Below are positions 11,444 through 26,449 of a DNA stretch of 64,000 bases, in pieces (within the stretch, counting starts at the first letter, position 1; each line of letters starts with the position of its first letter). Under the pieces are notes generated by a model. It ran no database searches. It saw nothing but the letters and a program-made list of their open reading frames with translations, and was not told the DNA's origin. Made by a program: the position numbers and the translations under genes. Location: positions 1 through 64,000 of the forward strand of contig JANQFP010000242.1 of NCBI GenBank assembly GCA_028277795.1. Reading direction: 5' to 3'. This stretch comes from Rhodospirillales bacterium. GTDB lineage: Bacteria; Pseudomonadota; Alphaproteobacteria; Rhodospirillales; JANQFP01.

Positions 11444-11548
11444 ATACGTGAGCGCGCCGCTTTCGCGATGGGATTCAACGGCGCGTTGAGGGCACCAGCA
11501 CCGTCGAAGACCGCCCGGTGCGGCGCCTCCCCTACCCCCGCGCCCGGC

Positions 11549-12196
11549 TCACTGGATGGCGCCGGTGATGGCTCCGATGGTGGCCCGGTAGTCGTCTCCG
11601 TTGAACACCGCGCTGCCCGCCACCAGGACCTCCGCGCCGGCGTCGACCACGGCCTTGGCGGTGTCCTTGTTGACCCCGCCATCCACTTCGAGCTCGATGG
11701 GCCGGTTGCCGATCATGCGCCGGATGCGGCTGATCTTCTCCAACTGGGCCTCGATGAAGGACTGACCGCCGAAACCCGGATTGACCGACATGACGAGGAT
11801 GAGGTCGAGCTTGTCGAGCACGTGCTCGACCACGGTTTCGGGGGTCGACGGGTTCAACGAAACCCCCGCCTTCTTGCCCAGGGACTTGATGACCTGGAGG
11901 CTGCGGTCGAGATGGATGTCGGCCTCCGCGTGCACGGTGATGATGTCGGCACCGGCGTTGGCGTAGTCCTCCAGATACGGCTGCGCCGGGTTGATCATCA
12001 GGTGGACGTCGAAGGGCAGCTTGCTGTAGGGGCGGATGCACTTGATGACCGGCGGCCCGAAGGTCAGGTTGGGCACGAAATGCCCGTCCATGACGTCGAT
12101 GTGGATGTAGTCGCATCCCGCCTCGTCGACGGCGCGGACCTCTTCGCCGAGACGGGCGAAGTCCGCGGACAGAATGGATGGAGCGATCTTGATCAC
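11549..12196 (-). CDS. rpe: Ribulose-phosphate 3-epimerase
   Basis: This enzyme interconverts ribulose 5-phosphate and xylulose 5-phosphate in the Calvin and pentose phosphate cycles. The TIM-barrel sequence has the family motifs [35 protein letters not shown] (metal ligands), [19 protein letters not shown] and EVDGGVN. The GTG at 12196 is preferred over an in-frame ATG at 12217: the family begins at this point, and a GGGAGGCGG ribosome site lies just before it. The product is then 215 residues. It lies downstream of cbbO on the same strand but has its own operator-bearing promoter region, so it can be expressed separately. Confidence 0.94.
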
Positions 12197-12228
12197 GGCC
12201 GCCTCCCAGGTTCGCATCGGGACAGTTC

Positions 12229-12275: not shown

Positions 12276-14636
12276 TTATCGGGTCAACGTGGCGAACACG
12301 GCTGGCAGACGTTCCGGGAGCTTCTCCACGTGATCGACGATGGAATAGCGGTTCTCGCCGAAGATGCGGGCCACGTAGCGGTCGGCCAAGGGATCCAGGG
12401 TCAGGCAGTAGGTGTAGATGCCGCGGGTGGCCAGGTCCTCGACCGCCTTCTTGGTGTCTTGGCGCAGGTACTGCGGGTCCCGTTCGTCGATGTCGGCCGG
12501 CTCGCCGTCGGTGATCAGCAGCACCAGCCGTTTCTGGGCCGGCTGCTGGCTCAGGTGCCACCCGGCGTGTCGCAGGGCCGCGCCCATGCGGGTCGACAGA
12601 CCCCCGGCCATCCCGGCCAGGCGCGCCTTGGGGCCGTCGTCGTAGGGCTGGTTGAAGTCCTTGAACCGGTAGTACTGTACGTCGTGGCGGCCGTCGGAGG
12701 CGAAGCCGTGCACGGCGAAGGGATCGCCGATGGACGAGATGGCCCAGGACAGCAGACCCGTCGCCTCGCGGGTGAGCGACAGCACCGTGGGACCGTCGGG
12801 GTCGTCCTTGTGGATGGGCTCGTTGGTGGATTCCGAGAGATCCAGCAGGATGACCACCGCCAGGTCGCGCAGGTGGCGGGTGATGCGGATGTTGATGCGC
12901 GGGTCGGGCATGATCCCGCGGCGGATGTCGATCATCGACCGGACGGCGGCGTTGAGGTCGATCTCCTCGCCCTCCTCGTAGCCGCGCCGGCGCACCACCC
13001 CCTGGGGCTGCAGCGCGTCGATGAGGTGGCGGATGCGCGAGGCGATGGGCCGATACTTGACCAGGATGTCGTCCATGGCCTCCGGGTCCCCTGCCCCCTG
13101 GCGGCGCTCGACGACGGTGGCCCAGTCCGGCCGGTGGAGCTGGATCTGGTAGTCCCATTCGTCGTAGTGGAAGGGCTCGGAGACCGGCTCCTTGCCTTCC
13201 ATCTCGTTGTAGGAGACGCCTTCGTCCTCGTAGGGGAACAGCTCGGTGCCGAGCACCCAGACCTCCTCGGCGTCGTCGCCGGCGGTCTCCACGTCGATCT
13301 CGTTGACGAACTCCATCAGGTTCACGTGGCGGCGCACCTGGCCGCGGCTGGCCGGCATGTAGTCGACCCCCCTCTCACGCCACAGCACCTCGTCGAAGTC
13401 CCAGACGAAGCGGTTGTCGTCCCGATACGGCACCGGGAAGTCTTCCAGCGCCCGCAGCGACGGCACGCCCACCCGGGCCGCCACCAGGTGATGGAAATCC
13501 ATGCCGGCGTCCCACGAGATGCGGTTGTCGCCCGCCGCGGCGGCCAGCCGTTCGCGGAAGGCGGCCGCCTGGGCCTGCAGGTCGGCGTCGGTGTCCCGAT
13601 AGCCGGGGTCGCCGAGGGCGCGGGCCATGCGCAGGTGCAGGTCCAGGGCCGGATGGGGCGCCTGCCCGCCGTCGGCCACCGAGGCGGCGGCGAAGAAGCG
13701 CCGCCAAAGCTTGGCCAGACCCGGGAAGTCCTGGGCCGCCAGGTGCTCGACCCGGGCATCCTCGAACAGGCCGATGGACGCCATGTGCACGGGCGTGAGC
13801 TGCTCGGCCGACATGGCGCGATCCGTGTACACCACGTGGGCGGCGCAATGGGCGGCGGCGGCGCGGTAGATCTCGATTCCCGAGATGCCGTCGACGTCGT
13901 CGAAGGCGTCGGGCAGGTGGATGCTCCAGTCCTCGATAAACGGCCTGAGCCCCTTCCGCGTCTCGTAGTCGCCCGATGTGGGGCGCATGAAGAAGGCCCG
14001 CCCCCACAGCGCCCGCAGATAGAAGTTCAGCTTGCGCTGGTTGTCGACGAACAGGGTGCCTCGGCGCTCCTTCTGCAGCACGCTCCGGGACGACTCGCTT
14101 TTCAGCCCGAAGTAGGTCATCTGGCCGTCCAGATCGCGGGCATGGGCCTGGGCCCCCCACAGCGCCCAGCGGCGCAGGCCGCCCAGGGTGAGCTTGCCGA
14201 GGAGCTCGTCCAGGTTCTCCAGCATCGGCCTGAGGCCGCGCGGCGCCTTGCCGGCAAGCTGATGGATCAGGCCGAGGAAGCTGCGCAGCACGTCGGCGTC
14301 GCCCAGGCGTTGGGCGGCCAGCGGCAGATTGGACAGGAGCAGCGACAGCACCGTGCCCGAGGTGTGCGACGAGAGCTTCATCAGGGCGTGGACGATGTCG
14401 GGCACCACGTCCTCGCCGACCTCCTTGGCGACGGACGGCAGCTCCTGGATGTAGGTGAGGATCAGATCCTCGCCACGGCCCAGCGAGCACAGGGCCTTGA
14501 TGCCCTCCAGGTAGTTGGCGAGGCCGCGCGGCGACATCACCCGGGCCGCCTCCTGGTAGGCGGAGTCCAAGGCCTGCACGTGCGGGTGATCGTCGCTGAG
14601 GCAGCTCAGATACTCGACGAACGCGACCCGGCCCAT
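12276..14636 (-). CDS. cbbO: Rubisco activase component CbbO (VWA-domain protein)
   Basis: CbbO is the von Willebrand factor A partner of the AAA+ motor CbbQ; together they remodel inhibited form I Rubisco. The 786-residue protein has a long helical N-terminal region and a C-terminal VWA domain. The metal-ion-dependent adhesion motif is visible as VVILLDLSESTNEPIH (DxSxS, about residue 600), with VLLITDGEPADIDERDP further on. The length matches the family. It starts 19 bp after cbbQ and is the last gene of the glpX-to-cbbO operon. Confidence 0.93.
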   Translation of the reverse strand: MGRVAFVEYLSCLSDDHPHVQALDSAYQEAARVMSPRGLANYLEGIKALCSLGRGEDLILTYIQELPSVAKEVGEDVVPDIVHALMKLSSHTSGTVLSLLLSNLPLAAQRLGDADVLRSFLGLIHQLAGKAPRGLRPMLENLDELLGKLTLGGLRRWALWGAQAHARDLDGQMTYFGLKSESSRSVLQKERRGTLFVDNQRKLNFYLRALWGRAFFMRPTSGDYETRKGLRPFIEDWSIHLPDAFDDVDGISGIEIYRAAAAHCAAHVVYTDRAMSAEQLTPVHMASIGLFEDARVEHLAAQDFPGLAKLWRRFFAAASVADGGQAPHPALDLHLRMARALGDPGYRDTDADLQAQAAAFRERLAAAAGDNRISWDAGMDFHHLVAARVGVPSLRALEDFPVPYRDDNRFVWDFDEVLWRERGVDYMPASRGQVRRHVNLMEFVNEIDVETAGDDAEEVWVLGTELFPYEDEGVSYNEMEGKEPVSEPFHYDEWDYQIQLHRPDWATVVERRQGAGDPEAMDDILVKYRPIASRIRHLIDALQPQGVVRRRGYEEGEEIDLNAAVRSMIDIRRGIMPDPRINIRITRHLRDLAVVILLDLSESTNEPIHKDDPDGPTVLSLTREATGLLSWAISSIGDPFAVHGFASDGRHDVQYYRFKDFNQPYDDGPKARLAGMAGGLSTRMGAALRHAGWHLSQQPAQKRLVLLITDGEPADIDERDPQYLRQDTKKAVEDLATRGIYTYCLTLDPLADRYVARIFGENRYSIVDHVEKLPERLPAVFATLTR

Positions 14637-14655: not shown

Positions 14656-15486
14656 TCAGAAGTAGGTGCCGACGGCGGCGTCCAGGGTGTCGCGCATGTC
14701 CGGATCGTCGGTCAGCGGCCGCACCAGCGCCATCTTGCAGGCCGCCACCGGCTCGATGCCCTTGGCGATGAGCTGGCCGGCGTAGACCAACAGCCGGGTG
14801 GACATGCCCTCGTCGAGGCCATGGCCCTTGAGGTTGCGGGAGCGGTGCGCCACCTGAACTAACTTGCCCGACATGTCCGGGTCGACACCCGCCTCGTGGG
14901 CAACGATCTCGGCCTCGACCTCGGAATCCGGAAACGTGAAGTCGAGGGCGGCGAACCTCTGCTTGGTCGACTGCTTGAGGTCCTTCATCAAGCTCTGATA
15001 GCCCGGATTGTAGGAGATCACGAGCTGGAAGTCCGGATGGGCGGAGACCAGCTCGCCCTTCTTCTCCAAGGGCAGGTTGCGGCGATGGTCGGTCAACGGG
15101 TGGATCACCACCGTCGTGTCCTGGCGTGCCTCGACGACTTCGTCGAGATAGCAGATGGCGCCAATGCGGGCAGCCACGGTCAACGGGCCGTCCTGCCAGC
15201 GCGTGCCGTTGATGTCGAGCAGGAAGCGCCCCACCAGGTCCGACGCCGTCATGTCCTCGTTGCAGGCCACTGTGATCAGCGGCTTGCCGAGTTTCCACGC
15301 CATGTGCTCGACGAATCGGGACTTGCCGCAGCCGGTCGGTCCCTTGAGCATCACCGGTATGCGGGCGTCATAGGCGGCCTCATAGAGCCCCACCTCGTCG
15401 CCGACAGACCGGTAATACGGTTCCTGCTCGATGCGATATTGGTCGGCGTCGACTTCGTCGACGGTCTTTTTAGCGGCGTTTGCCAT
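14656..15486 (-). CDS. cbbQ: Rubisco activase AAA+ motor CbbQ
   Basis: CbbQ is a MoxR-type AAA+ ATPase that powers removal of inhibitory sugar phosphates from Rubisco. The 276-residue protein shows Walker A ([10 protein letters not shown], about residue 44), the substrate loop after [15 protein letters not shown], Walker B (AICYLDEV) and the sensor region [12 protein letters not shown]. The ATG at 15486 is chosen because longer readings extend into the cbbS spacer with no conserved sequence. It lies between cbbS and cbbO, the classic cbbLSQO order of form IA(q) Rubisco. Confidence 0.95.
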
Positions 15487-15581
15487 TGTCTTACCCCTGT
15501 TGCTGCTGGGGACTGGCTGACCCGCAAGGGGAGCGCCGGCCGGACCGCGTACAGCCCGGCCGGTCAGCGAGATCCCAGTAG

Positions 15582-15941
15582 TCAGGCCGTCATCGGACCG
15601 CGATAGATCACCATCGAGGTGCCCTGGGACTGGGCGTAGTTGTCGTATCCGATCAGGCGGACGTGGTGGCTCGGGTGTGCCTTGTGGCACGCCTCCGCCT
15701 CGTCGAGGATGCGGTCCACGTCGGTCTCACCGAACATCGGCAGCTTCCACATGTACCAATAGTGGTCGAAGGCGTTCTCAGGCTCCGTATGCTCGACGGC
15801 CGGGTTCCAGCCCTTGGAGACGATGTACTCCACTTGCTTGCGGATAGCGTTGGCGTCCATCTCCTCCAGGTAGGAGAAGGTCTCGAACTTCCGGCTGTTC
15901 GGATCCGAGAGGCTGGACGCGTAGTCTTTGACGTCACTCAT
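15582..15941 (-). CDS. cbbS: Rubisco small subunit, form I
   Basis: This is the 119-residue small subunit of form I ribulose-bisphosphate carboxylase. Typical stretches are [46 protein letters not shown] and [14 protein letters not shown]. The length and sequence fit the form IA class associated with cbbQ rather than carboxysomes; no carboxysome shell gene is nearby. It is 72 bp after cbbL on the same strand. Confidence 0.97.
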
Positions 15942-16013: not shown

Positions 16014-17432
16014 CTACCTATGGGCCACGTCCAGCTTGTCGACGGTGTCGAACTCGAACTTGATCTCCTTCCAGGTATCCATGGCCGCCTTGAGCTCGGG
16101 GCTGTGCCGGGCGGCGGCGGTCAGGATGTCCTTGCCTTCCTTTTCCACCTCGCGGCCCTGGTTGCGAGCCTCGACGCAGGCCTCGAGGGCCACGCGATTG
16201 GCGGCTGCACCGGCCGCGTTACCCCATGGATGGCCGAGGGTGCCACCACCGAACTGCAGGCAGGCGTCGTCACCGAAGATGGTGACCAAGGCCGGCATGT
16301 GCCAAACATGGATACCGCCGGAGGCAACCGGGAACACGCCGGGCATGGAACCCCAGTCCTGATCGAAGAAGATGCCGCGCGAGCGGTCTTCCTTGATGAA
16401 GCTCTCGCGCATGATGTCGATCCAGCCGAGCGTCGCCTCGCGGTCGCCCTCGAGCTTGCCGACGACCGTCCCCGAGTGCAGGTGGTCGCCACCCGACAGG
16501 CGCAAGGCCTTGGCCAGCACCCGGAAGTGGATACCGTGGCGCGGGTGACGGTCGAGAACGGCGTGCATGGCGCGGTGAATGTGCAACAACATGCCGTTGT
16601 CGCGGCACCATTGGGCGAGACCGGTGTTGGCCGTGAAGCCGCCGGTCAGGAAGTCGTGCATGATGATCGGTGCCTTCAGTTCCTTGGCGAACTCGGCGCG
16701 CTTGTACATCTCTTCCGGGGTCGGCGCGGTGACGTTGAGATAGTGCCCCTTGCGCTCGCCGGTTTCCCGCTCGGCCTTGTGGACGGCTTCCATGACGAAC
16801 TCGAAGCGGTTGCGCCAGCGCATGAACGGCTGCGAGTTGATGTTCTCGTCGTCCTTGGTCAAATCGAGACCGCCGCGCAGGCACTCATAGACGGCGCGGC
16901 CGTAGTTCTTGGCGCTGAGGCCCAACTTCGGCTTGATGGTGCAGCCGAGCAAGGCGCGGCCATACTTGTTGAACTTGTCCCGCTCGACCTGAATGCCGTT
17001 CGGCGGCCCGTTACAGGTCAACACGTAGGCGAGGGGAAAGCGCACATCCTCGAGGCGAAGGGCGCGCACCGCCTTGAAGCCGAAGACGTTGCCGACCAGC
17101 GAGGTGAAGACGTTGACGACCGAGCCTTCCTCGAAGAGGTCGATGGGATAGGCGATAAAGGCGTAATAGCACTCGTCGTCACCGGGCACGTCCTCGATGG
17201 CGTAGGCGCGGCCTTTGTAGTGATCGAGGTCGGTCAACAGGTCGGTCCACACGGTGGTCCAGGTCCCGGTCGACGACTCGGCTGCCACCGCGGCCGCCGC
17301 CTCCTCGCGCGGCACGCCCGGCTGCGGGGTGATCTTGAAGCACGCGAGGATGTCGGTGTCCGCAGGCGTGTACTCCGGCATCCAATAGGTTTCACGGTAT
17401 TCCTTCACACCGGCACTATATGTTTTCGCCAT
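16014..17432 (-). CDS. cbbL: Rubisco large subunit, form I
   Basis: This is the catalytic subunit that fixes CO2 onto ribulose 1,5-bisphosphate. The 472-residue protein has all expected active-site motifs: [18 protein letters not shown] (catalytic lysine), [17 protein letters not shown] (carbamylated lysine and metal ligands), [31 protein letters not shown] with loop 6, and [13 protein letters not shown]. Ending and length are normal, and with the cbbQ and cbbO neighbours the subtype is form IA(q). The gene is in mid-operon, 45 bp after fba. Confidence 0.98.
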
Positions 17433-17477: not shown

Positions 17478-18542
17478 TTAGTGCACGTGCGGATCGAGGC
17501 TGCCGGACGCGTACCGATCGGCCATCGCACTCAGGGGGATCGCCTTGATCTTCGACGCGTTGCCGGCCGTTCCGAACTGCTCGAACCTTTCTTCGCAGAC
17601 CTTCTGCATGGCCGCGCGGGCGGGCTTCAAATAGGCGCGCGGATCGAACTCCGCCTTCTTCTCGCTCAACACCTTGCGGATGGCGGCGGTGATGGCCATC
17701 CGGTTGTCGGTGTCGATGTTGATCTTGCGCACCCCGTTCTTGATGCCGGTGACGATCTCGCTGACCGGCACGCCGTAAGTCTGTGGCATCTCGCCGCCGT
17801 ACTGGTTGATCAGGTCCTGAAGCTCCTGGGGCACCGACGACGAGCCGTGCATCACCAGATGGGTGTTGGGCAGCTTGCCGTGAATGGACTTGATCACGTC
17901 CATGGCCAGGATCTCGCCGGTCGGCTTGCGGGTGAACTTGTAGGCCCCGTGCGAGGTGCCGATGGCCACCGCCAGCGCGTCGACCTTGGTCTTGGCGACG
18001 AAGTCGGCGGCTTGGTCGGGATCGGTCAGCAACTGGTCCTTGCTCAGGGTGCCCTCGAAGCCGTGGCCGTCCTCCTTGTCGCCCTGGCCGGTTTCCAGGG
18101 AACCGAGGCAGCCCAGCTCGCCCTCCACCGAGACGCCGACCATGTGGGCCATGTCGACCACCTTGCGGGTCACGTCCACGTTGTAGTCGTAAGACGCCGG
18201 GGTCTTGGCGTCCTCCTCCAGGGAGCCGTCCATCATCACCGACGAGAAACCGTTGGTGATCGCCGACATGCACGTCCCCGGGCTGTTGCCGTGGTCCTGG
18301 TGCATGCATACGGGGATGTCGGGATACATCTCGATGGCCGCCTCGATCAAGTGGCGCAGCACGGTGTCGTTGGCATAGGAGCGGGCGCCGCGGCTGGCCT
18401 GCATGACGACCGGGGAATCCGTCTTCTCGGCGGCGGCCATGATCGCCAGCATCTGTTCCATATTGTTGATGTTGTAGGCCGGCACGCCGTAGCCGTTCTC
18501 CGCGGCGTGGTCGAGCAACTGTCTAAGAGATACCAATGCCAT
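17478..18542 (-). CDS. fba: Class II fructose-bisphosphate aldolase
   Basis: This zinc-dependent aldolase condenses triose phosphates to fructose 1,6-bisphosphate, and can also make sedoheptulose 1,7-bisphosphate, in the Calvin cycle. The 354-residue protein shows [15 protein letters not shown] (metal-binding His), the [17 protein letters not shown] loop, [33 protein letters not shown] and [11 protein letters not shown], followed by [15 protein letters not shown]. It lies between tkt and cbbL, in the usual CbbA position. Confidence 0.96.
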
Positions 18543-18641: not shown

Positions 18642-20681
18642 CTACATGCGGGCCTTGGCCGCTGCGACAACGTTTTCCGCTGTGATTCCGAAGTGCTCGA
18701 ACAGCGTCGGCGCCGGTGCCGAGGCCCCGAACCCGGTCATGCCGACGAAGGTTCCGTTCTCGCCAATATAGCGCTCCCAGCCCTGGACCAGGCCCGCTTC
18801 CACGCCCACCCGGACGCTCCCCGGGCGCAGCACCATGTCGCGGTAGCGCTCGCTCTGCATGTCGAACAGCTCCCAGCACGGCATGGACACGACGGCCGTG
18901 GGAATGCCCTCGGCTTCCAGCGTCTCGCGGGCCTCGACGGCGATGGACACCTCGGAGCCGGTGGCCATCAGCGTCACCTTGCGCTCTTCGTAGCCGGCTT
19001 CGGCCTCCATCAGCACGTAGGCGCCGCGGGCACACATGTTCTCGGTCTCCAGGGTCTTGCGCACCGCCGGGACGGCCTGCCGGGTCAGCACCAGAGACGT
19101 CGGGATGTCGTTCTGGATCAGTGCGATGGCCCAGCATTCAGAGGTCTCGACGGCGTCGGCCGGCCGCAGCACGTGCATGTTGGGGATGGCGCGCAGGGAG
19201 GCCAGGGTCTCCACCGGCTGGTGGGTCGGGCCGTCCTCGCCGAGGCCGATGGAATCGTGGGTCAGCACGTAGATCACCCGCAGTCCCATCAGCGCCGACA
19301 GGCGCATGGAGCCCCGCATGTAGTCGGCGAAGACCAGGAAGGTGCCGCCGTAGGGGATGAGCCCCCCGTGCAGGGCGATGCCGTTCATGATCCCGGCCAT
19401 GGCGTGCTCGCGCACGCCGTAGCGGAGGTAGCGCCCGGAGAAGTCGCTGGCGGACAGGTCCTTCATGCCGCGGGCCTTGGTGTTCACCGAGGCGGTGAGG
19501 TCGGCGGACCCGCCGATCATCTCGGGGAAGGCGGCGGTGAAGATGGCCAGGGCCTCACCCGAGGCGAGCCGGGTCGGCATCTTCGGCTGCTCGTTGGCGA
19601 ACCGGTTCTTGAGGTCGGACAGCGCCTGCTGCCAGCCCGGCGCCAATTGGCCGGCCATGACCCGCTTGAACTCGGCCCGCTTCCACGGATCGATGTTGTC
19701 CAGGCGCTCCTTCCACGCCTCCCGCTCCTTGGTCCACCGCTTGCCGATCTTGCGCCAGGCGTTGAGGATGTTGTCCGGGACGACGAAGGGCTCGTGGGGC
19801 CAGTTCAGGTTTTCCCGCGCCCCGGCGACCTCGGCCTCGCCCAGCGGCGCGCCGTGGGTGGCTTCGGTGCCGGCTTTGGTGGGGGCGCCGTAGCCGATGA
19901 TGGTCTCGCAGCAGATCAGCGACGGCGTGCAGGAGTTGCGCGCGTACTCGATGGCGTCCTCGACCGCCTTGGGGTCGTGGCCGTTGATGCACTGGACGTC
20001 CCAGCCACTGGCCTGGAAGCCGGAGATGTGGTCGTGGATCTGGGTCAGCTCCGTGGGGCCGTCAATGGAGATGGAGTTGTCGTCCCAGAACACGATCAGC
20101 TTGTTTAGCCCCAGGTGCCCGGCCAGGGACACGGCCTCGTAGCTGATGCCCTCCATGAGGCAGCCGTCGCCAGCGATGACGTAGGTGAAGTGGTTGACCA
20201 CGTCGTCGCCGTAGCGGTCGTTGAGCACCTTCTCGGCCAGCGCCATGCCGACGGCGTTGGTGATGCCCTGACCCAGGGGGCCGGTGGTGGTCTCGATGCC
20301 CGCCGCTTCGCCGTACTCCGGGTGGCCGGCGCATTTCGAGTGCAGCTGGCGGAACGTCTTGATCTCGTCGATGGTCATGTCCTCGTACCCGGTCAGGTAG
20401 AGGAGCGAGTACAGCAGCATGGACCCGTGACCGGCCGACAGCACGAAGCGGTCGCGGTCGTCCCACTTGGCGTCCGCCGGGTCGAACTTCAGGTACTTGG
20501 AGAACAGCACTGTCGCCACGTCGGCCATGCCGAGCGGTGCGCCGGGGTGCCCGGACTTCGCCTTCTCGATCGCGTCCATGGACAGGAAGCGTATGGCGTT
20601 GGCCATGTCGTCGTGGGTGACAGGGACCTTCCCGGTCTCCGTTTCGGAGCGCTTGGCGACTTTTGGCTGGGCAGCCGGCAT
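18642..20681 (-). CDS. tkt: Transketolase
   Basis: This thiamine-diphosphate enzyme transfers two-carbon units in the Calvin and pentose phosphate cycles. The protein (679 residues from the ATG at 20681) has SGHPGAPLGMADVATVLF, the ThDP site GDGCLMEGISYEAVSLAGH, and later HDSIGLGEDGPTHQPVE. The start is chosen because AGGAGAAGAACG lies directly before it and because the longer reading overlaps the prk stop. It lies between prk and fba in the Calvin operon. Confidence 0.97.
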   Translation of the reverse strand: MPAAQPKVAKRSETETGKVPVTHDDMANAIRFLSMDAIEKAKSGHPGAPLGMADVATVLFSKYLKFDPADAKWDDRDRFVLSAGHGSMLLYSLLYLTGYEDMTIDEIKTFRQLHSKCAGHPEYGEAAGIETTTGPLGQGITNAVGMALAEKVLNDRYGDDVVNHFTYVIAGDGCLMEGISYEAVSLAGHLGLNKLIVFWDDNSISIDGPTELTQIHDHISGFQASGWDVQCINGHDPKAVEDAIEYARNSCTPSLICCETIIGYGAPTKAGTEATHGAPLGEAEVAGARENLNWPHEPFVVPDNILNAWRKIGKRWTKEREAWKERLDNIDPWKRAEFKRVMAGQLAPGWQQALSDLKNRFANEQPKMPTRLASGEALAIFTAAFPEMIGGSADLTASVNTKARGMKDLSASDFSGRYLRYGVREHAMAGIMNGIALHGGLIPYGGTFLVFADYMRGSMRLSALMGLRVIYVLTHDSIGLGEDGPTHQPVETLASLRAIPNMHVLRPADAVETSECWAIALIQNDIPTSLVLTRQAVPAVRKTLETENMCARGAYVLMEAEAGYEERKVTLMATGSEVSIAVEARETLEAEGIPTAVVSMPCWELFDMQSERYRDMVLRPGSVRVGVEAGLVQGWERYIGENGTFVGMTGFGASAPAPTLFEHFGITAENVVAAAKARM

Positions 20682-20715
20682 CGTTCTTCTCCTGGTTCGA
20701 GGTTGGACGCGCGGA

Positions 20716-21654
20716 CTAGATGGCGTGGTGGCCAAGCGCCGCCTTGACCATGTGGTAGGTGATCAGCAACTGGGACAAAGCGAGCGGATGGGACATGCCC
20801 AGCTGGTTCTGGTCGTCGGTGAACCGCCCGAGGTTCTCACGCAGATGCTGGGCCTCGGGAATCAGATTCCACAGCAGGTCTTCCATGGTCTTGGCGCGCC
20901 GGTCGTCGATATCGCCGGCGATGTCCAGCACGTCCACCGGCTTGCCGTCCACGTCGCGCGCCAGCTCGAGCCGCAGGCCCTTGTTGGCCCCCGCCTCCAG
21001 CACCGGCGTCAGGTCCGGGTGCGGCAGGGTCGGGCGCAGGGTATGACGCACGTTCAGGTGGGCGCCGGTCTCCTCGGCGTTGCCTTCCGGCGGATAGAAC
21101 TTGACCACCATGTCGGCGAAGGTGCGCTGGGGCTGGATGAAATCGACGCTGTCGGTCACCCGCTTCTCCAGGGACGACAACACCTGTTCGCGGGTGTAGC
21201 CGCGCTTGCCGCAGTCACGCTGGATCTTCCAGCGGACGCGCAGGTCCTCCTCGGGCTCCAGGTACACCTTCACGTCGTAGGCGTCGCGCATGGTGCGGGT
21301 GGCGTAGCCGAGCAGACCCTCGAGGATGATGTACTCCTTGGGCTCCACGTACTCCGGCGCATCCAGGGTGCCGCCGTGATGATTGTAGATGGGTTTGAGG
21401 ATGGGCTTGCCATCGCGCAGCAGGTGGATGTGCTGCTCCAGGATGTCGATGTAGTTGCCGGCCGGATCGAGCGCCGAGATGCCGTTCTCGGCCCGCTGCT
21501 TGCGGTCGAAGCGGTGATAGTCGTCGGTGCAGATGGTCACCGTCCGATCGGGTCCGAGAACCTGGGCGATGCCGGCCGAAAGGGTGGTCTTTCCCGCCGC
21601 TGAATCGCCAACAATGCCGAGGATTATGGGTCTGCTGATACGTTTAAATGGCAT
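20716..21654 (-). CDS. prk: Phosphoribulokinase
   Basis: This enzyme phosphorylates ribulose 5-phosphate to the Rubisco substrate and is a diagnostic enzyme of the Calvin cycle. The 312-residue bacterial-type PRK has a P-loop near the start (GIVGDSAAGKTTLSAGIA), TICTDDYHRFDRKQRAENG, the loop EPKEYIILEGLLGYATR, and KVYLEPEEDLRVRWKIQRD. It lies 23 bp after glpX and 34 bp before tkt. Confidence 0.97.
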   Translation of the reverse strand: MPFKRISRPIILGIVGDSAAGKTTLSAGIAQVLGPDRTVTICTDDYHRFDRKQRAENGISALDPAGNYIDILEQHIHLLRDGKPILKPIYNHHGGTLDAPEYVEPKEYIILEGLLGYATRTMRDAYDVKVYLEPEEDLRVRWKIQRDCGKRGYTREQVLSSLEKRVTDSVDFIQPQRTFADMVVKFYPPEGNAEETGAHLNVRHTLRPTLPHPDLTPVLEAGANKGLRLELARDVDGKPVDVLDIAGDIDDRRAKTMEDLLWNLIPEAQHLRENLGRFTDDQNQLGMSHPLALSQLLITYHMVKAALGHHAI

Positions 21655-21677: not shown

Positions 21678-22676
21678 TCAGGCCGGGTTTGTCCGACGGT
21701 GAAGGGTGGTGAGGATCTGGCGCTCGCCCGTATTTCCTGCAATCAGCAGGGTCTCCGTGCGCTCGTCGGTCTTGGTGCGTTTGACTCCCTTGAACAGCAG
21801 GCCGGTGGCGATGCCGGTGGCGACGAAGTAGATCTCCTCCGTGCGCACCAGGTCGTCGACCGACTGCCAAACGGTCGTGTCCAGCCCCGCCTTTTCGATT
21901 TCCGCCTTCTCGGTGGCGAGCTGGGGATCGAGCCGGCTGAAGTAGACGCCGCCCATGGCCCGGATGGCGCAGGCGGCGATCAGCCCTTCCCGGGTGCCGC
22001 CGGTTCCCATCAGGGCGTCGATGCCGGAGTCCGGGATGGCCGCCATCAGCGCGCCGGCCACGTCGCCGGCCGGATAGAGCGCCACCTTGGCGCCGGCCTG
22101 GCGGATCTGTTGAACCAACTCGCGATGGCGCGGCTTCTCCAGCACGTAGATGGTGAGTTCGGGCAGGGGCTTGCCGAGGACGCGGCTCAGGGTGTTCAGG
22201 CGCTCCTCGACCGGGGCGTCTGGGTCCACCTTGCCTTCGGCGGCCGGCGGCGCCACGAACTTGTCCATATAGAAGGACGGCCCCGGATCGGCCATGGTGC
22301 CCTCGGGCGTGAGCGCCATGACCGCCATGGCGTTGGTCATGCCCTTGGCTAGGTAGGAGGTGCCTTCGGCCGGGTCGACGGCGATGTCGAAACGACGGGT
22401 TCCGTCGCCGGCGCCAACCTGGGCGCCGGTGTCCAGGTCGCGCACCGTACCGTTGGCCCCCTCGGGGCGGTCGCCGACCACGACGCGGCAGGCAATGGGG
22501 AACTTGTTCAGCTCTTCGACCATGGCCTGGGTCGCCGCCTTGGCGCTGCGCCCGCGCTCCGAGCTGCCCAGCCACTCGTAGGCGGCCCGGGCCCCGGCTT
22601 CGGTCACCGTACGCAGAGCGTAGACGAACCCGGGTCCTTCGCAGATGGAGACTGGACTTGCCTTGCCGGCAATCAT
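21678..22676 (-). CDS. glpX: Class II (GlpX-type) fructose-1,6/sedoheptulose-1,7-bisphosphatase
   Basis: This lithium-sensitive-fold phosphatase hydrolyses fructose and probably sedoheptulose bisphosphate, regenerating Rubisco substrate. The 332-residue protein has the GlpX marks: AKAATQAMVEELN (acidic start of the site), DIAVDPAEGTSYLAKGM (metal-binding DPxEGT) and TGGTREGLIAACAIRAMGG. It is the first gene of the Calvin operon, downstream of a promoter that carries a perfect ATTAG-N6-CTAAT operator. A GlpX enzyme replaces the class I CbbF common in many autotrophs. Confidence 0.95.
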   Translation of the reverse strand: MIAGKASPVSICEGPGFVYALRTVTEAGARAAYEWLGSSERGRSAKAATQAMVEELNKFPIACRVVVGDRPEGANGTVRDLDTGAQVGAGDGTRRFDIAVDPAEGTSYLAKGMTNAMAVMALTPEGTMADPGPSFYMDKFVAPPAAEGKVDPDAPVEERLNTLSRVLGKPLPELTIYVLEKPRHRELVQQIRQAGAKVALYPAGDVAGALMAAIPDSGIDALMGTGGTREGLIAACAIRAMGGVYFSRLDPQLATEKAEIEKAGLDTTVWQSVDDLVRTEEIYFVATGIATGLLFKGVKRTKTDERTETLLIAGNTGERQILTTLHRRTNPA

Positions 22677-22750: not shown

Positions 22751-22779
22751 ACTATAGCATTAGAATTGCCTAATGGAAT
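22751..22779 (-). promoter_or_regulatory. Calvin operon promoter with operator in its spacer
   Basis: On the minus strand a -10 box TATAGT (22756-22751) lies 17 bp downstream of a weak -35 ATTCCA (22779-22774). The spacer is almost entirely the palindrome ATTAGGCAATTCTAAT (22774-22759 on this strand), a perfect ATTAG-N6-CTAAT. A protein bound there would block polymerase access. The promoter is about 75 bp before the glpX start. Box assignment is by eye. Confidence 0.55.
22759..22774. promoter_or_regulatory. Perfect ATTAG-N6-CTAAT operator before the Calvin operon
   Basis: ATTAGAATTGCCTAAT has both five-base arms identical to those in front of the ArsR gene at 5999, with the same 6-bp spacing. 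It is the only strong AT-rich element in the 227-bp gap between the NarL-type regulator and glpX. This points to direct control of glpX-prk-tkt-fba-cbbLSQO by the ArsR-type protein. Confidence 0.7.
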
Positions 22780-22850
22780 ACCCGCCCGGGCGGGTAGGCA
22801 GATTCTTTGGAGTGGGACCGCCCTACCCGCGCGGGTGGGTGAGCTGTGTC

Positions 22851-22904
22851 ATACCGGCGCGCGAAGCGCCATCGCGGTGCGTCGGAAAGCCCGCGCGGCG
22901 GTAT
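22851..22904. repeat. REP-like hairpin, copy A
   Basis: This 54-bp element begins ATACCGGCGCGCGAAGCGCC and ends GCCCGCGCGGCGGTAT. The outer 13 bp of the two ends pair with one mismatch, so it can fold into a long hairpin. It begins at the stop codon of the NarL-type gene. Related copies follow the stop codons of two unrelated genes, at 32886 and 47471, marking a dispersed intergenic repeat that probably acts as an mRNA 3' end structure. Confidence 0.65.
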
Positions 22905-23527
22905 CAAACGTGGGATTTTAGGTAGTGGGCCACGGCCTGGGCCCGGTTGTTGACGCCGAGCTTGTCGTAAAGGTTCTTCAAATGAAACTTGACGGTGTTG
23001 AGGGAGATGTCCAGGTCGCCGGCGATCTGGGCGTTGGTGCGACCGCGGGACAGGGCGGCCAGCAACTCCAGCTCGCGGCCCGTCAAGGCGCCGAGAGGGT
23101 CGGCCGGGGCCTCGCGCACGTCCATGAAGGGAAACACCATGCTGCCCTCGGCCACGGCGGCGATGGTCTCCAGCAGGCGGTCCGGCGGTTCCGTCTTGGC
23201 ACAGAATCCGGCGCCGCCGAGCTGCATGACGGTGCGCGGGATGTCGGCGCGGGCGTTGCCGGTGTAGACGATGATGCGGGGGGCCGCTGGGCGCTCGCGC
23301 AACGACTCCAGGACGCCGCGGCCGTCCAGGTACGGCATGTCCCAGCCGATGACGCCGACGTCGAACACCAAGCGGTCGATGGCCTCGAGGAACCGCTCGC
23401 CGTCCGCCGCCGTGGCCAGCAGGGTGAACCGGCTGTCGCCCGCCAGGAGCTGCGCAAGGCCCGCCTGGACCAGCGGGTTCTTGTCGGCGACGACGATGTC
23501 GATGGGTTTGTACTGCGCCTCGCTCAT
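22904..23527 (-). CDS. NarL/FixJ-type response regulator with degenerate receiver
   Basis: This 207-residue protein has a receiver-like N-terminus (residues 9-125) and a LuxR-type helix-turn-helix at the C-terminus (LTGRELELLAALSRGRTNAQIAGDL then LNTVKFHLKNLYDKLGVNNR). The receiver keeps its threonine (VYTGNA) and lysine (FCAKTEPPDRL). The phosphoacceptor position, however, is Gly61 (VIGWDMPYLDG) and the N-terminal acid pair is ADKN instead of ADD. It probably does not respond to phosphorylation. It lies directly upstream of the Calvin operon on the same strand and downstream of the Rieske gene; no histidine kinase gene is near. Confidence 0.85.
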   Translation of the reverse strand: MSEAQYKPIDIVVADKNPLVQAGLAQLLAGDSRFTLLATAADGERFLEAIDRLVFDVGVIGWDMPYLDGRGVLESLRERPAAPRIIVYTGNARADIPRTVMQLGGAGFCAKTEPPDRLLETIAAVAEGSMVFPFMDVREAPADPLGALTGRELELLAALSRGRTNAQIAGDLDISLNTVKFHLKNLYDKLGVNNRAQAVAHYLKSHV

Positions 23528-23662: not shown

Positions 23663-24394
23663 TCAGCAGGAGACCCGCTGGGAGGTGAAGGCCTGCATGG
23701 GGATGGCTTCGGTGACCCCGGGGACCTCCTTGATCGCCTCGCCGCGGCCGTATCGCCGGCGCAGGTCGCGGCGAAACAGGTTGAAGAACTGCCGCAGGAT
23801 CAGGCTTTCGCCGTAGAGACCGACGGCCTTGATGACGTCCGTGCGCTCGTTGTGTTCGAGGGCGATGGTGAGCAGCGGCTGCGGGGTCTGTCCGCGGATG
23901 GGGGCGCCGCCGGCGGCCGCATCGAAGACGCTGCCGTGGGCGCAGCAGGAGATGACCTTGCCGCGATTGGCCAGACGGCTGACCCGATGATAGTAGTTGA
24001 CGAAGCTGTTGAGCCGGTTGGGGTGGCTCATCAGATGGCTGCAGATCCCGGAATACGCGACGATCGAGCGCTTGGGGCCGACGCCTCCCGGCCACACGTA
24101 GGGACGGCCGCCCATGGTCCGCATGGCCAGCCGGGTGGGCAGGGGAATGCCGACGTCGATGAGCAGGCACGGGGTGGACACATAGGGGTAGTGGAAGACG
24201 TAGGCCACGCCCTCCTTCAGGTCGGCGGCCTTGAGCGGCGCCCCGTCGGGGCCCACGATCTTGGCCTGGGTGAACCGCTTGAGCCCCTCCTCGGGCAGCG
24301 GTCCGGCCGGCGGCAGGATGTGCGGCGGGCGGTCCTCCAGCGAAGGGAACGCCAGCCAGCCGCTGCACAGCCACAGGAACCGGCGTCGTCTCAT
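23663..24394 (-). CDS. Rieske [2Fe-2S] domain protein
   Basis: This is a 243-residue protein with a short arginine-rich, hydrophobic N-terminus (MRRRRFLWLCSGWLAFPSLE) that may be a twin-arginine or anchor signal. Both Rieske cluster motifs are present: CSH (in GICSHLMSHP, about residue 125) and CCAHGS (in VISCCAHGSVFD, about residue 160). The C-terminal third (LILRQFFNLFRRDLRRRYG) is not part of a standard Rieske domain, and the protein ends in cysteine. The ATG at 24394 is preferred because upstream sequence in frame looks non-coding. It is transcribed towards the NarL-type regulator, divergent from the cytochrome/fccB genes. It is probably an electron carrier in sulfur oxidation. Confidence 0.75.
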   Translation of the reverse strand: MRRRRFLWLCSGWLAFPSLEDRPPHILPPAGPLPEEGLKRFTQAKIVGPDGAPLKAADLKEGVAYVFHYPYVSTPCLLIDVGIPLPTRLAMRTMGGRPYVWPGGVGPKRSIVAYSGICSHLMSHPNRLNSFVNYYHRVSRLANRGKVISCCAHGSVFDAAAGGAPIRGQTPQPLLTIALEHNERTDVIKAVGLYGESLILRQFFNLFRRDLRRRYGRGEAIKEVPGVTEAIPMQAFTSQRVSC

Positions 24395-24812
24395 GTGCCG
24401 CTCTCCGCCGATGGCCTCGCGCCCAGAACGAATCGTCGCCGGTGGGACGCACCGCGACTCATCCTGGTCATGGAACGAGATACGTTCTCCCCAACCCGGC
24501 GGTGCCATCCCCGGCCATGCCCCTCACCGACGGGTCCCCCAATCTTGTTTTGCTTTACCAATACCGCCAAAGGGGCCCGGTCGGCAAGACGGCGGCTGAA
24601 TCCGCCGGTGGCCGGTATGGACGACGGCACGGTGTTGTTTGGAAAAATTGCACGCGACGACGCGTCCGGACCCGGCCGGCCGTGATGGAAGCCGTGGTAA
24701 AAAATCGTCTTGTGTTATCCGCGATAAAGGTTTTTTGAAATTGTCGAAGTCGTGTTACCGTACCGCAACTTTTATTAAGAACATCCGTGGAGCATTTAAG
24801 GGAGGGACACGC
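24395..24812. other. 418-bp intergenic region between Rieske and cytochrome genes
   Basis: I see no gene here. The left half is GC-rich; the right half from about 24690 is AT-richer and should hold the promoter of the cytochrome-fccB operon. It contains a 13-bp palindrome TTATC-CGC-GATAA at 24715-24727, a candidate regulator site of unknown type. There is no convincing ATTAG-N6-CTAAT element, so the sulfide dehydrogenase genes may not belong to that putative regulon. Confidence 0.5.
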
Positions 24813-25139
24813 ATGCTACGGAAATTCGCAATCCCTATGGCGGTCGGCGTGGGTGCGGCGCTGACGGTATTCGCCATGCCGGCCCAAAGCATGGAAAAGA
24901 AGATGGCGGTTGCCGACGCCCGCTTGTTGGCGGCCGGCTGCTTCAACTGCCATGGTCCAGCCGGTGAGTCACAGGGGCATATCGACGAGATCAACGACAT
25001 CTCGGCGGACAAGATGGTCAAGAAAATGAAGGAGTTCCGCGAGGGCAAGGCATCGACCATCATGGGCCGCATCGCCAAGGGCTTTTCGGACGCCGAGCTG
25101 ATGGCCCTGGCGGCACACATCGAGGCACTGAACAAATAA
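24813..25139 (+). CDS. Periplasmic c-type cytochrome, FccA/SoxE-like sulfide dehydrogenase subunit
   Basis: This small monoheme cytochrome c of 108 residues has a signal peptide (residues 1-26, ending MPAQS), the heme motif CFNCHG (about residue 43) and a C-terminal helix typical of class I cytochromes (MALAAHIEALNK). A methionine in STIMGRIAKGF is the likely sixth ligand. A GGGAGGG ribosome site precedes the ATG. It lies 17 bp before the flavoprotein gene, as in flavocytochrome c sulfide dehydrogenases, where it accepts electrons from the FAD subunit. Confidence 0.88.
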   Translation: MLRKFAIPMAVGVGAALTVFAMPAQSMEKKMAVADARLLAAGCFNCHGPAGESQGHIDEINDISADKMVKKMKEFREGKASTIMGRIAKGFSDAELMALAAHIEALNK

Positions 25140-25156
25140 ACTGGGGGACGCGTTCA

Positions 25157-26449
25157 ATGACCAAATCGACACGGAGAGACTTCCTGCAGATCGCCGGCGC
25201 CACCGGTGCGATCTCAGCTCTGTCCCTCGCCGGCTGTGCGCAGATGGGCAAGGGCTCGGGCGCCCGGGTGGTGGTGATCGGCGGCGGCTATGCCGGTGCC
25301 ACGGCCGCCAAGTACGTCAAGACCTGGGATTCCAGCATCGACGTGACGCTGATCGAGCCGAAACAGAAGTACGTGAGCTGCCCGCTCAGCAACACCGTGC
25401 TCGGCGGATTCGGCGACATGGCGAAGATCACCTTCGACTACACCGCCATGAAGAACGACCACAAGGTCAACGTGGTCCACGACATGGCGACCGCGGTCGA
25501 CCCGGCCAAGAAGACGGTCACCACCAAGGGCGGCCAGTCCATCGCGTACGATCGCCTGATCGTCGCTCCCGGCATCGATTTCAACGATTTCCCCGGTTAT
25601 GTGGCGTCCCAGCACGAAGACATGGTGCCGCACGCCTGGAAGGCGGGTCCGCAGACCGTTCTCCTGCGCAAGCAGTTGGAGGCCATGGACGATGGTGGCG
25701 TGGTCATCATCTCGCCGCCCACCAACCCCTACCGCTGTCCGCCGGGTCCGTACGAGCGCGCCAGCCTCATCGGGTTCTACCTGAAGACCAAGAAGCCGCG
25801 GTCCAAAGTCATCGTCATGGACCCCAAGGACAAGTTCTCCAAGCAGGGCTTGTTCACTGAAGGCTGGAATATGCACTACAAGGGCTACATCGAGTGGGTG
25901 TCCAAGGCCAACGACGGCGCGGTCCTCGAGGTCGACGCCAAGGGTAAGCGGGTGCGCACCGATTTCGGCTGGCACAAGGCGGACGTGCTCAACTTCATCC
26001 CGCCGAAGCAGAAGGCCGGCGGCATCGCAGCCGCGGCGGGTCTCACCGACAAGTCGGGGTGGTGCCCGGTCAACCTGCAGACCTTCGAGTCCACGATCCA
26101 CAAGGACATCCACGTGATTGGCGACGCGGCCATCGTGCCCGGCATGCCCAAGTCGGGCAACGCCGGCAACACGGAGGCCAAGGCGTGCGCATTGGCGGTG
26201 GTCAGCCTGCTCAACGGTGATCCGGTGAGCACGGCACACACCTCCAACACCTGCTACAGCCTGATCACACCCTCCCACGGCATGTCGGTGAATGCCACCT
26301 ACCATCTGACGGAAGACAGCAAGAAGTACACCAAGATGAAGGGCTCCGGCGGCCTCAGCCCGATGGGGGCCAGCGCCGACGTGCGCAAGCAGGAAGCCAA
26401 GTATGCGTGGGGTTGGCTCGCCAACATCAGCACCGACATCTGGGGCTAG
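25157..26449 (+). CDS. fccB: Flavocytochrome c sulfide dehydrogenase, flavoprotein subunit
   Basis: This FAD enzyme oxidises sulfide in the periplasm and passes electrons to its cytochrome partner. The 430-residue protein starts with a twin-arginine signal (TRRDFLQIAGATGAIS), then the FAD-binding fold RVVVIGGGYAGATAAKYV. The two redox-active cysteines lie in YVSCPLSNTVLGG and PYRCPPGPYERA. A second nucleotide-fold segment HVIGDAAIVPGMPKSGN follows. The C-terminus (YAWGWLANISTDIWG) matches FccB/SoxF. It pairs with the cytochrome gene just upstream. Sulfide:quinone reductase is less likely given the export signal and the partner. Confidence 0.93.
   Translation: MTKSTRRDFLQIAGATGAISALSLAGCAQMGKGSGARVVVIGGGYAGATAAKYVKTWDSSIDVTLIEPKQKYVSCPLSNTVLGGFGDMAKITFDYTAMKNDHKVNVVHDMATAVDPAKKTVTTKGGQSIAYDRLIVAPGIDFNDFPGYVASQHEDMVPHAWKAGPQTVLLRKQLEAMDDGGVVIISPPTNPYRCPPGPYERASLIGFYLKTKKPRSKVIVMDPKDKFSKQGLFTEGWNMHYKGYIEWVSKANDGAVLEVDAKGKRVRTDFGWHKADVLNFIPPKQKAGGIAAAAGLTDKSGWCPVNLQTFESTIHKDIHVIGDAAIVPGMPKSGNAGNTEAKACALAVVSLLNGDPVSTAHTSNTCYSLITPSHGMSVNATYHLTEDSKKYTKMKGSGGLSPMGASADVRKQEAKYAWGWLANISTDIWG

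Follow-up and report, generated by a model that had tools for sequence, protein, structure and literature searches.

A NarL-type pseudo-receiver protein as the probable regulator of a Calvin cycle operon in a Rhodospirillales genome without a detectable CbbR

The Calvin cycle (cbb) operon in a 64,000-nucleotide stretch of Rhodospirillales DNA, hereafter the window, is preceded by the gene of a NarL-type protein. We consider it probable that this protein is a phosphorylation-independent, sequence-specific and pathway-specific regulator of the operon, acting in place of the missing CbbR. CbbR, a LysR-type protein, is seen as the master regulator of Calvin operons in bacteria. An earlier note on this DNA had suggested that an atypical regulator, blind to phosphorylation, accompanies the operon in place of CbbR. 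Gene linkage, co-occurrence, the lack of a detectable CbbR and motif conservation support that proposal.

The regulator gene lies 227 bp upstream of glpX, on the same strand as the operon, whose order is glpX-prk-tkt-fba-cbbL-cbbS-cbbQ-cbbO-rpe (Table 1). The window GlpX has lost the residues aligned to the metal-site Asp and Glu (positions 25 and 49 of the Mycobacterium alignment) and scored 236.9 against TIGR00330, under the cut-off of 259.3. It was the sole fructose bisphosphatase (FBPase)-type match in the genome to which the window belongs, and PF00316 was not found there. The same genome encodes a phosphofructokinase (PFK; L205) with a PKTIDND motif, which we take to be typical of pyrophosphate-dependent enzymes. 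This PFK may therefore carry out the FBPase step.

Table 1. Regulator gene, predicted regulatory elements and Calvin operon genes of the window.
Feature	Position	Strand	Remark	Basis
NarL/LuxR-type regulator, pseudo-receiver domain (Gly61, Lys16, Trp62, Cys109, Lys111)	22904..23527	-		ORF, Pfam, alignment, structure model
Predicted operator and upstream element of cbb operon, GGGTAGG-N5-CCCACTC-CAAAGAA ... GGGTATT	22777..22838	-		motif conservation
Palindrome CCACCCGCGCGGGTAG	22823..22838	.	only CYACCC-N4-GGGTRG in the 4.38-Mb genome	genome search
Perfect 18-bp palindrome TACCCGCCCGGGCGGGTA	22779..22796	.	only TACCC-N(0-10)-GGGTA in the window	window search
glpX (class II FBPase family, degenerate metal site)	21678..22676	-	first operon gene	family scans, alignment
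prk, phosphoribulokinase	20716..21654	-		family scans
tkt, transketolase	18642..20735	-	ORF as listed, true start may be downstream	Pfam
fba, fructose-bisphosphate aldolase	17478..18542	-		sequence and place
cbbL, form I RuBisCO large subunit	16014..17432	-	45 bp after fba	
cbbS, RuBisCO small subunit	15582..15941	-		sequence and place
cbbQ-type AAA ATPase	14656..15690	-	ORF as listed, start probably downstream	
cbbO-type protein	12276..14636	-	no NCBIfam match	place and sequence
rpe, ribulose-phosphate epimerase	11549..12217	-	last gene	sequence and place

The regulator is a 207 aa protein with a receiver (REC) domain and a LuxR-type helix-turn-helix (HTH). Residues 11-122 matched Pfam Response_reg (PF00072; E 1e-15, 58.4 bits against a cut-off of 30.2) and residues 148-200 matched Pfam GerE (E 4e-18, 65.1 bits). 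The structure model (mean pLDDT 86.8) placed four helices in the HTH (150-160, 165-172, 176-190 and 195-205), which gives the NarL/FixJ-type arrangement of REC followed by a four-helix LuxR/GerE HTH, and fold comparison returned LiaR, EvgA, ChrA and RcsB as the top PDB matches. A score of 109.9 bits against the NarP NCBIfam model, whose curated cut-off is 343, and the presence of Gly61 separate the protein from canonical NarL and NarP; a Pfam scan of the protein found no LysR-type domain, which separates it from CbbR. The regulator is NarL-type by architecture and is not NarL, NarP or CbbR.

In the structure model, Gly61 takes the position of the phosphoacceptor Asp, directly after strand beta3 (57-60), while D15/K16, T89 and K111 stand at the ends of beta1, beta4 and beta5, the canonical pocket positions. 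Lys16 replaces the second acidic pocket residue; the first (D15), T89 and K111 are kept. Cys109 lies within strand beta5. Among 86 distinct orthologs, Gly61, Lys16, Trp62 and Lys111 were each invariant (86/86), Cys109 was present in 85, and position 89 was Thr in 83 and Ser in 3. In a wider set of 100 sequences from outside the serine-cycle group described below, Gly61 and Trp62 were again invariant and Lys16 occurred in 94. The Gly at the phosphoacceptor position, the damaged acidic pocket and the intact LuxR-type DNA-binding domain that had been described in the earlier note are all confirmed, with part of the pocket retained.

By the definition given in a published review (PMC12632262), Gly61 and Lys16 make the protein, on its sequence, a pseudo-receiver response regulator. 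The pattern of substitution indicates that the receiver of this family lost its phosphorylation capacity long ago and kept a defined basic pocket. Loss of the phosphoacceptor would also be expected if a two-component regulator were decaying into a pseudogene, but the same changes are fixed in all 86 distinct orthologs, which rules out recent random decay, and the HTH is intact and highly conserved. We regard decay as extremely improbable.

A Nitrobacter CbbR query gave no match at E<=1e-20 in the window's genome, an assembly rated 100% complete in 253 contigs. The absence of CbbR from the window, as first noted along with the suggestion of a genome-wide cbbR search, therefore extends to the whole genome at this threshold. 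Nine LysR proteins scored above the Pfam cut-off in this genome. A hidden CbbR among them was ruled out, as those matching two CbbR references shared only 23-36% identity with them, versus 45-50% for the CbbR proteins of relatives. When a CbbR-grade match was defined as E below 1e-50, 42 RuBisCO genomes divided into 20 with such a match and 22 with none, and the regulator was present in 21 of the 22. These 21 lacking a detectable CbbR are drawn from 39 genomes with both regulator and RuBisCO (21/39). One point needs correcting: this regulator is nothing unusual beside a Calvin operon, and in the order sampled it accompanies RuBisCO more often than CbbR does.

From a scan of contigs, 80 relatives at 59-73% identity were retained, mostly in Rhodospirillales-type genomes, and a single ortholog copy occurred in 46/100 order-level genomes. 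The gene lies directly 5' of glpX, prk or tkt in most loci; in several Magnetospirillum-type genomes it is found away from the cbb genes. Across the 100 genomes, 39 had both the regulator and form I/II RuBisCO, 7 had the regulator alone, 3 had RuBisCO alone and 51 had neither (Fisher 6e-17, phylogeny ignored). Both linkage to and co-occurrence with cbb genes, as expected of a cbb operon regulator, were therefore found. Four of the seven regulator-only genomes are 76-90% complete. The genome of Novispirillum itersonii (G090; loci L024 and L039) is complete and contains the regulator and a glpX-prk-tkt-fba operon, with RuBisCO not detected.

In four Magnetospirillum-type loci (L026, L032, L036 and L051), a gene resembling cytochrome b561 separates the regulator from glpX. 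Just upstream of the window regulator, positions 23663-26449 encode a Rieske-like protein, a cytochrome c and a flavocytochrome c sulfide dehydrogenase flavoprotein; sulfide dehydrogenase genes also flank the regulator in relatives L013, L014, L017, L022, L025 and L044.

CTACCC ranked first among hexamers independently in two regions. It occurred at 57/73 loci in the 200 bp preceding the regulator, where 4.1 were expected, and at 39/58 loci in the gap between the regulator and the cbb genes, where 4.0 were expected. These expectations were taken from random windows of the same loci, which are mostly coding. Copies upstream of the regulator tend toward ACCTACCC[GA]TTC[AG]GGG. Within the gap, an element of near-fixed 38-bp length, YACCC-NN-AAGAR ... 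GGGTGTT, was found in 37/59 cases versus 0.2% of shuffles, and the everted pair GGGTRG-N(2-10)-CYACCC, with at most one mismatch, in 38/59 versus 1.7%. The gap between the window regulator and glpX has two CTACCC copies, and the 200 bp upstream of the window regulator have none. Conservation of the motif suggests that the regulator binds CYACCC.

By itself the hexamer is no rarity in the window (10 copies versus 13.9 expected), and placement therefore matters. Similarly, exact GGGTRG-N8-CYACCC showed no genome-wide over-representation and is present in many regulator-free genomes, so that position carries the weight; the everted pair was dropped as a genome-wide regulon search because the background was too high. 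An extra CTACCC copy at window positions 11532-11537, between rpe and a DASS-type transporter gene, is a possible second site. CTACCC also occurs upstream of glpX in L155 and upstream of RuBisCO in G057, with the regulator gene elsewhere in both. A prk match allowed the cbb operon to be traced in 4/15 genomes with an orphan regulator, and this in trans comparison draws on few cases.

RuBisCO promoters were compared at 44 loci. Eighteen had an adjacent divergent CbbR, and the hexamer was found within 400 bp in 1/18 of these; a further locus had a co-directional CbbR and no hexamer. Where RuBisCO had its own promoter and no adjacent CbbR in a regulator-bearing genome, the hexamer was present in 12/15, the exceptions being L168, L179 and L182. 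The contrast of 12/15 with 1/18 gave a Fisher value of 1.4e-5 with phylogeny ignored, for promoter classes drawn after the data were seen and genomes that are not independent. One genus supplied four of the 12 promoters with the hexamer, and collapsing them gave 9/12. The hexamer was found in none of the eight RuBisCO genes sitting directly behind fba (0/8) and in neither of the two own RuBisCO promoters of regulator-free genomes (0/2).

More distant relatives, at 44-49% identity, are divergent to serine-cycle operons on Paracoccus, Ruegeria and Ponticoccus plasmids. These operons encode an aminotransferase, malate-CoA ligase and D-glycerate dehydrogenase, and most of them also PEP carboxylase. 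On the far side of the regulator lie genes for a CoA ester lyase and a glycerate kinase-type protein (DUF4147). CTACCC/GGGTAG was present in 6/6 divergent serine-cycle promoters examined (five plasmid promoters and L142) and GGGTGG-N8-CYACCC in 4/6; N8 is the usual everted-pair spacing in both the Calvin and serine-cycle sets. The six relatives at these promoters all have the same recognition segment, NTVKFHL. An Aminobacter relative comes after PEP carboxylase and glyA, and the Aminobacter regions, with their co-directional regulator, lacked CTACCC/GGGTAG. About 6.7-8.0 kb into the two Aminobacter loci (L130 and L131), a convergent anti-sigma factor and sigma factor pair follows the regulator. 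Further family members across the class adjoin genes of one pathway or the other.

Serine-cycle members carry Asp, Ala, Glu or Gly at position 61, and Gly61 was therefore rejected as a signature of every member of the wider family; Trp62 was present in all 111 wider-family sequences. Most serine-cycle members have neither the second acidic residue nor the Lys, and thus also depart from canonical receivers.

These comparisons bear on the possibility that a different conserved factor binds the CYACCC repeats and that the pseudo-receiver protein is a neighbor with another function. The pairing of protein and motif is read from motif conservation, and some regulator genes are found at a distance from the cbb genes, as a separate factor would allow. 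Such a factor is nonetheless quite improbable in our judgment, given that the motif accompanies the regulator family in two pathways that are unrelated, hardly occurs in RuBisCO promoters beside a CbbR and is absent from the two own promoters of regulator-free genomes.

We favor a scheme in which a dimer of the regulator probably binds the CYACCC repeats between its own gene and glpX and, once bound, would control glpX-prk-tkt-fba-cbbLSQO-rpe, activation being more likely than repression. Distant family members would probably control the serine cycle likewise. Autoregulation through the motif before the regulator gene is likely in most relatives; in the window this upstream motif was not seen. 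As to input, our guess is a signal other than Asp phosphorylation that acts on the vestigial basic pocket (Lys16, Lys111, Thr89 and Gly61). Since the pocket is basic, an anion is suggested, perhaps an anionic metabolite. Cys109, the basic residues Lys16 and Lys111 and the cytochrome b561 neighbor in some genomes are only hints of the ligand or redox dependence that the earlier note had suggested.

Two other signaling models are variants of this main explanation, and our confidence in either does not exclude it. The regulator might be constitutively active, with Lys16 mimicking activation and control exerted by the amount of protein through its own promoter and not by a ligand. CheY becomes constitutively active when Asp is changed to Lys at the equivalent position, but the D13K equivalent failed to activate EpsW (PMC4671073). 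Likewise, Lys16 is present in 86/86 orthologs, but serine-cycle relatives have Ser or Gly there, and the hexamer found upstream of the regulator in 57/73 loci is missing at that place in the window. The residues for Y-T coupling, T89 and an aromatic residue at 108, are retained, whereas the invariant Trp62 and Cys109 would be left unexplained. On balance we find constitutive activity rather doubtful.

The second variant is a redox switch, in which oxidation of Cys109 or a disulfide would alter dimerization and tie Calvin cycle expression to electron supply. It is unlikely in our view, as Cys109 lies in strand beta5 of the model and is probably buried, several serine-cycle members have Val or Ala in its place, and the cytochrome b561 or sulfide dehydrogenase genes near many loci may merely reflect lithotrophy. 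What speaks for a switch, besides those genes, is the presence of Cys109 in 85/86 orthologs and a redox-active Cys in other pseudo-receivers, such as RitR (PMC12632262).

Returning to control by a pocket ligand, we tentatively propose, at somewhat less than even chances, that the phosphorylation-blind NarL-type family may be a second master-regulator lineage for alphaproteobacterial one-carbon assimilation (Calvin and serine cycles), independent of CbbR and QscR, that would read a metabolite via an anion-binding receiver pocket. A description of the family was not found in the literature searched, in which subscription journals are thinly covered. A 2025 review calls the activation of pseudo-receivers a mystery (PMC12632262), and the present regulator is one for which there are probable targets and evident candidate metabolites. 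Should it be the controller, the autotrophy of many marine, magnetotactic and sulfur-oxidizing alphaproteobacteria is run by an unstudied family. Cultivable species of this group include Magnetospirillum moscoviense (L051) and M. sulfuroxidans (L034), and in Magnetovibrio blakemorei (L028) the regulator would share control with a CbbR.

Compared with known systems, the regulator shares domain order and fold with NarL and NarP; NarP is its best NCBIfam match and NarL (1a04) is among its best PDB sequence matches. It differs from them in Gly for the phosphoacceptor Asp, Lys for the second acidic residue and half-site spacing. The NarL heptamer is TACYYMT, which the TACCC half-sites of the window motif recall. 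CbbRRS of Rhodopseudomonas palustris reportedly acts through CbbR and has receivers without a DNA-binding domain, unlike the window protein, which has such a domain in the absence of CbbR. The two are alike in that receiver proteins take part in cbb control, as shown for CbbRRS by work cited in PMC11397080. Pseudo-receiver or aspartate-less regulators (RitR, ChxR, HP1043, JadR1 and VpsT) have also lost phosphotransfer residues and kept the receiver fold with an attached DNA-binding domain; no Calvin- or serine-cycle pseudo-receiver was found when two reviews (PMC12632262 and PMC4395418) were searched by term, or in the wider literature searched, with its thin coverage of subscription journals. 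CbbR itself is similar in having a gene that adjoins the cbb operon, pathway specificity and a predicted site in the operon promoter. It differs in superfamily (LysR versus REC plus LuxR-type HTH) and in motif, and it was not found in the window's genome. QscR, a CbbR homologue, governs the serine cycle in Methylobacterium (PMC3486813), and the CbbR/QscR pair parallels the two pathways, Calvin and serine cycle, of the regulator family.
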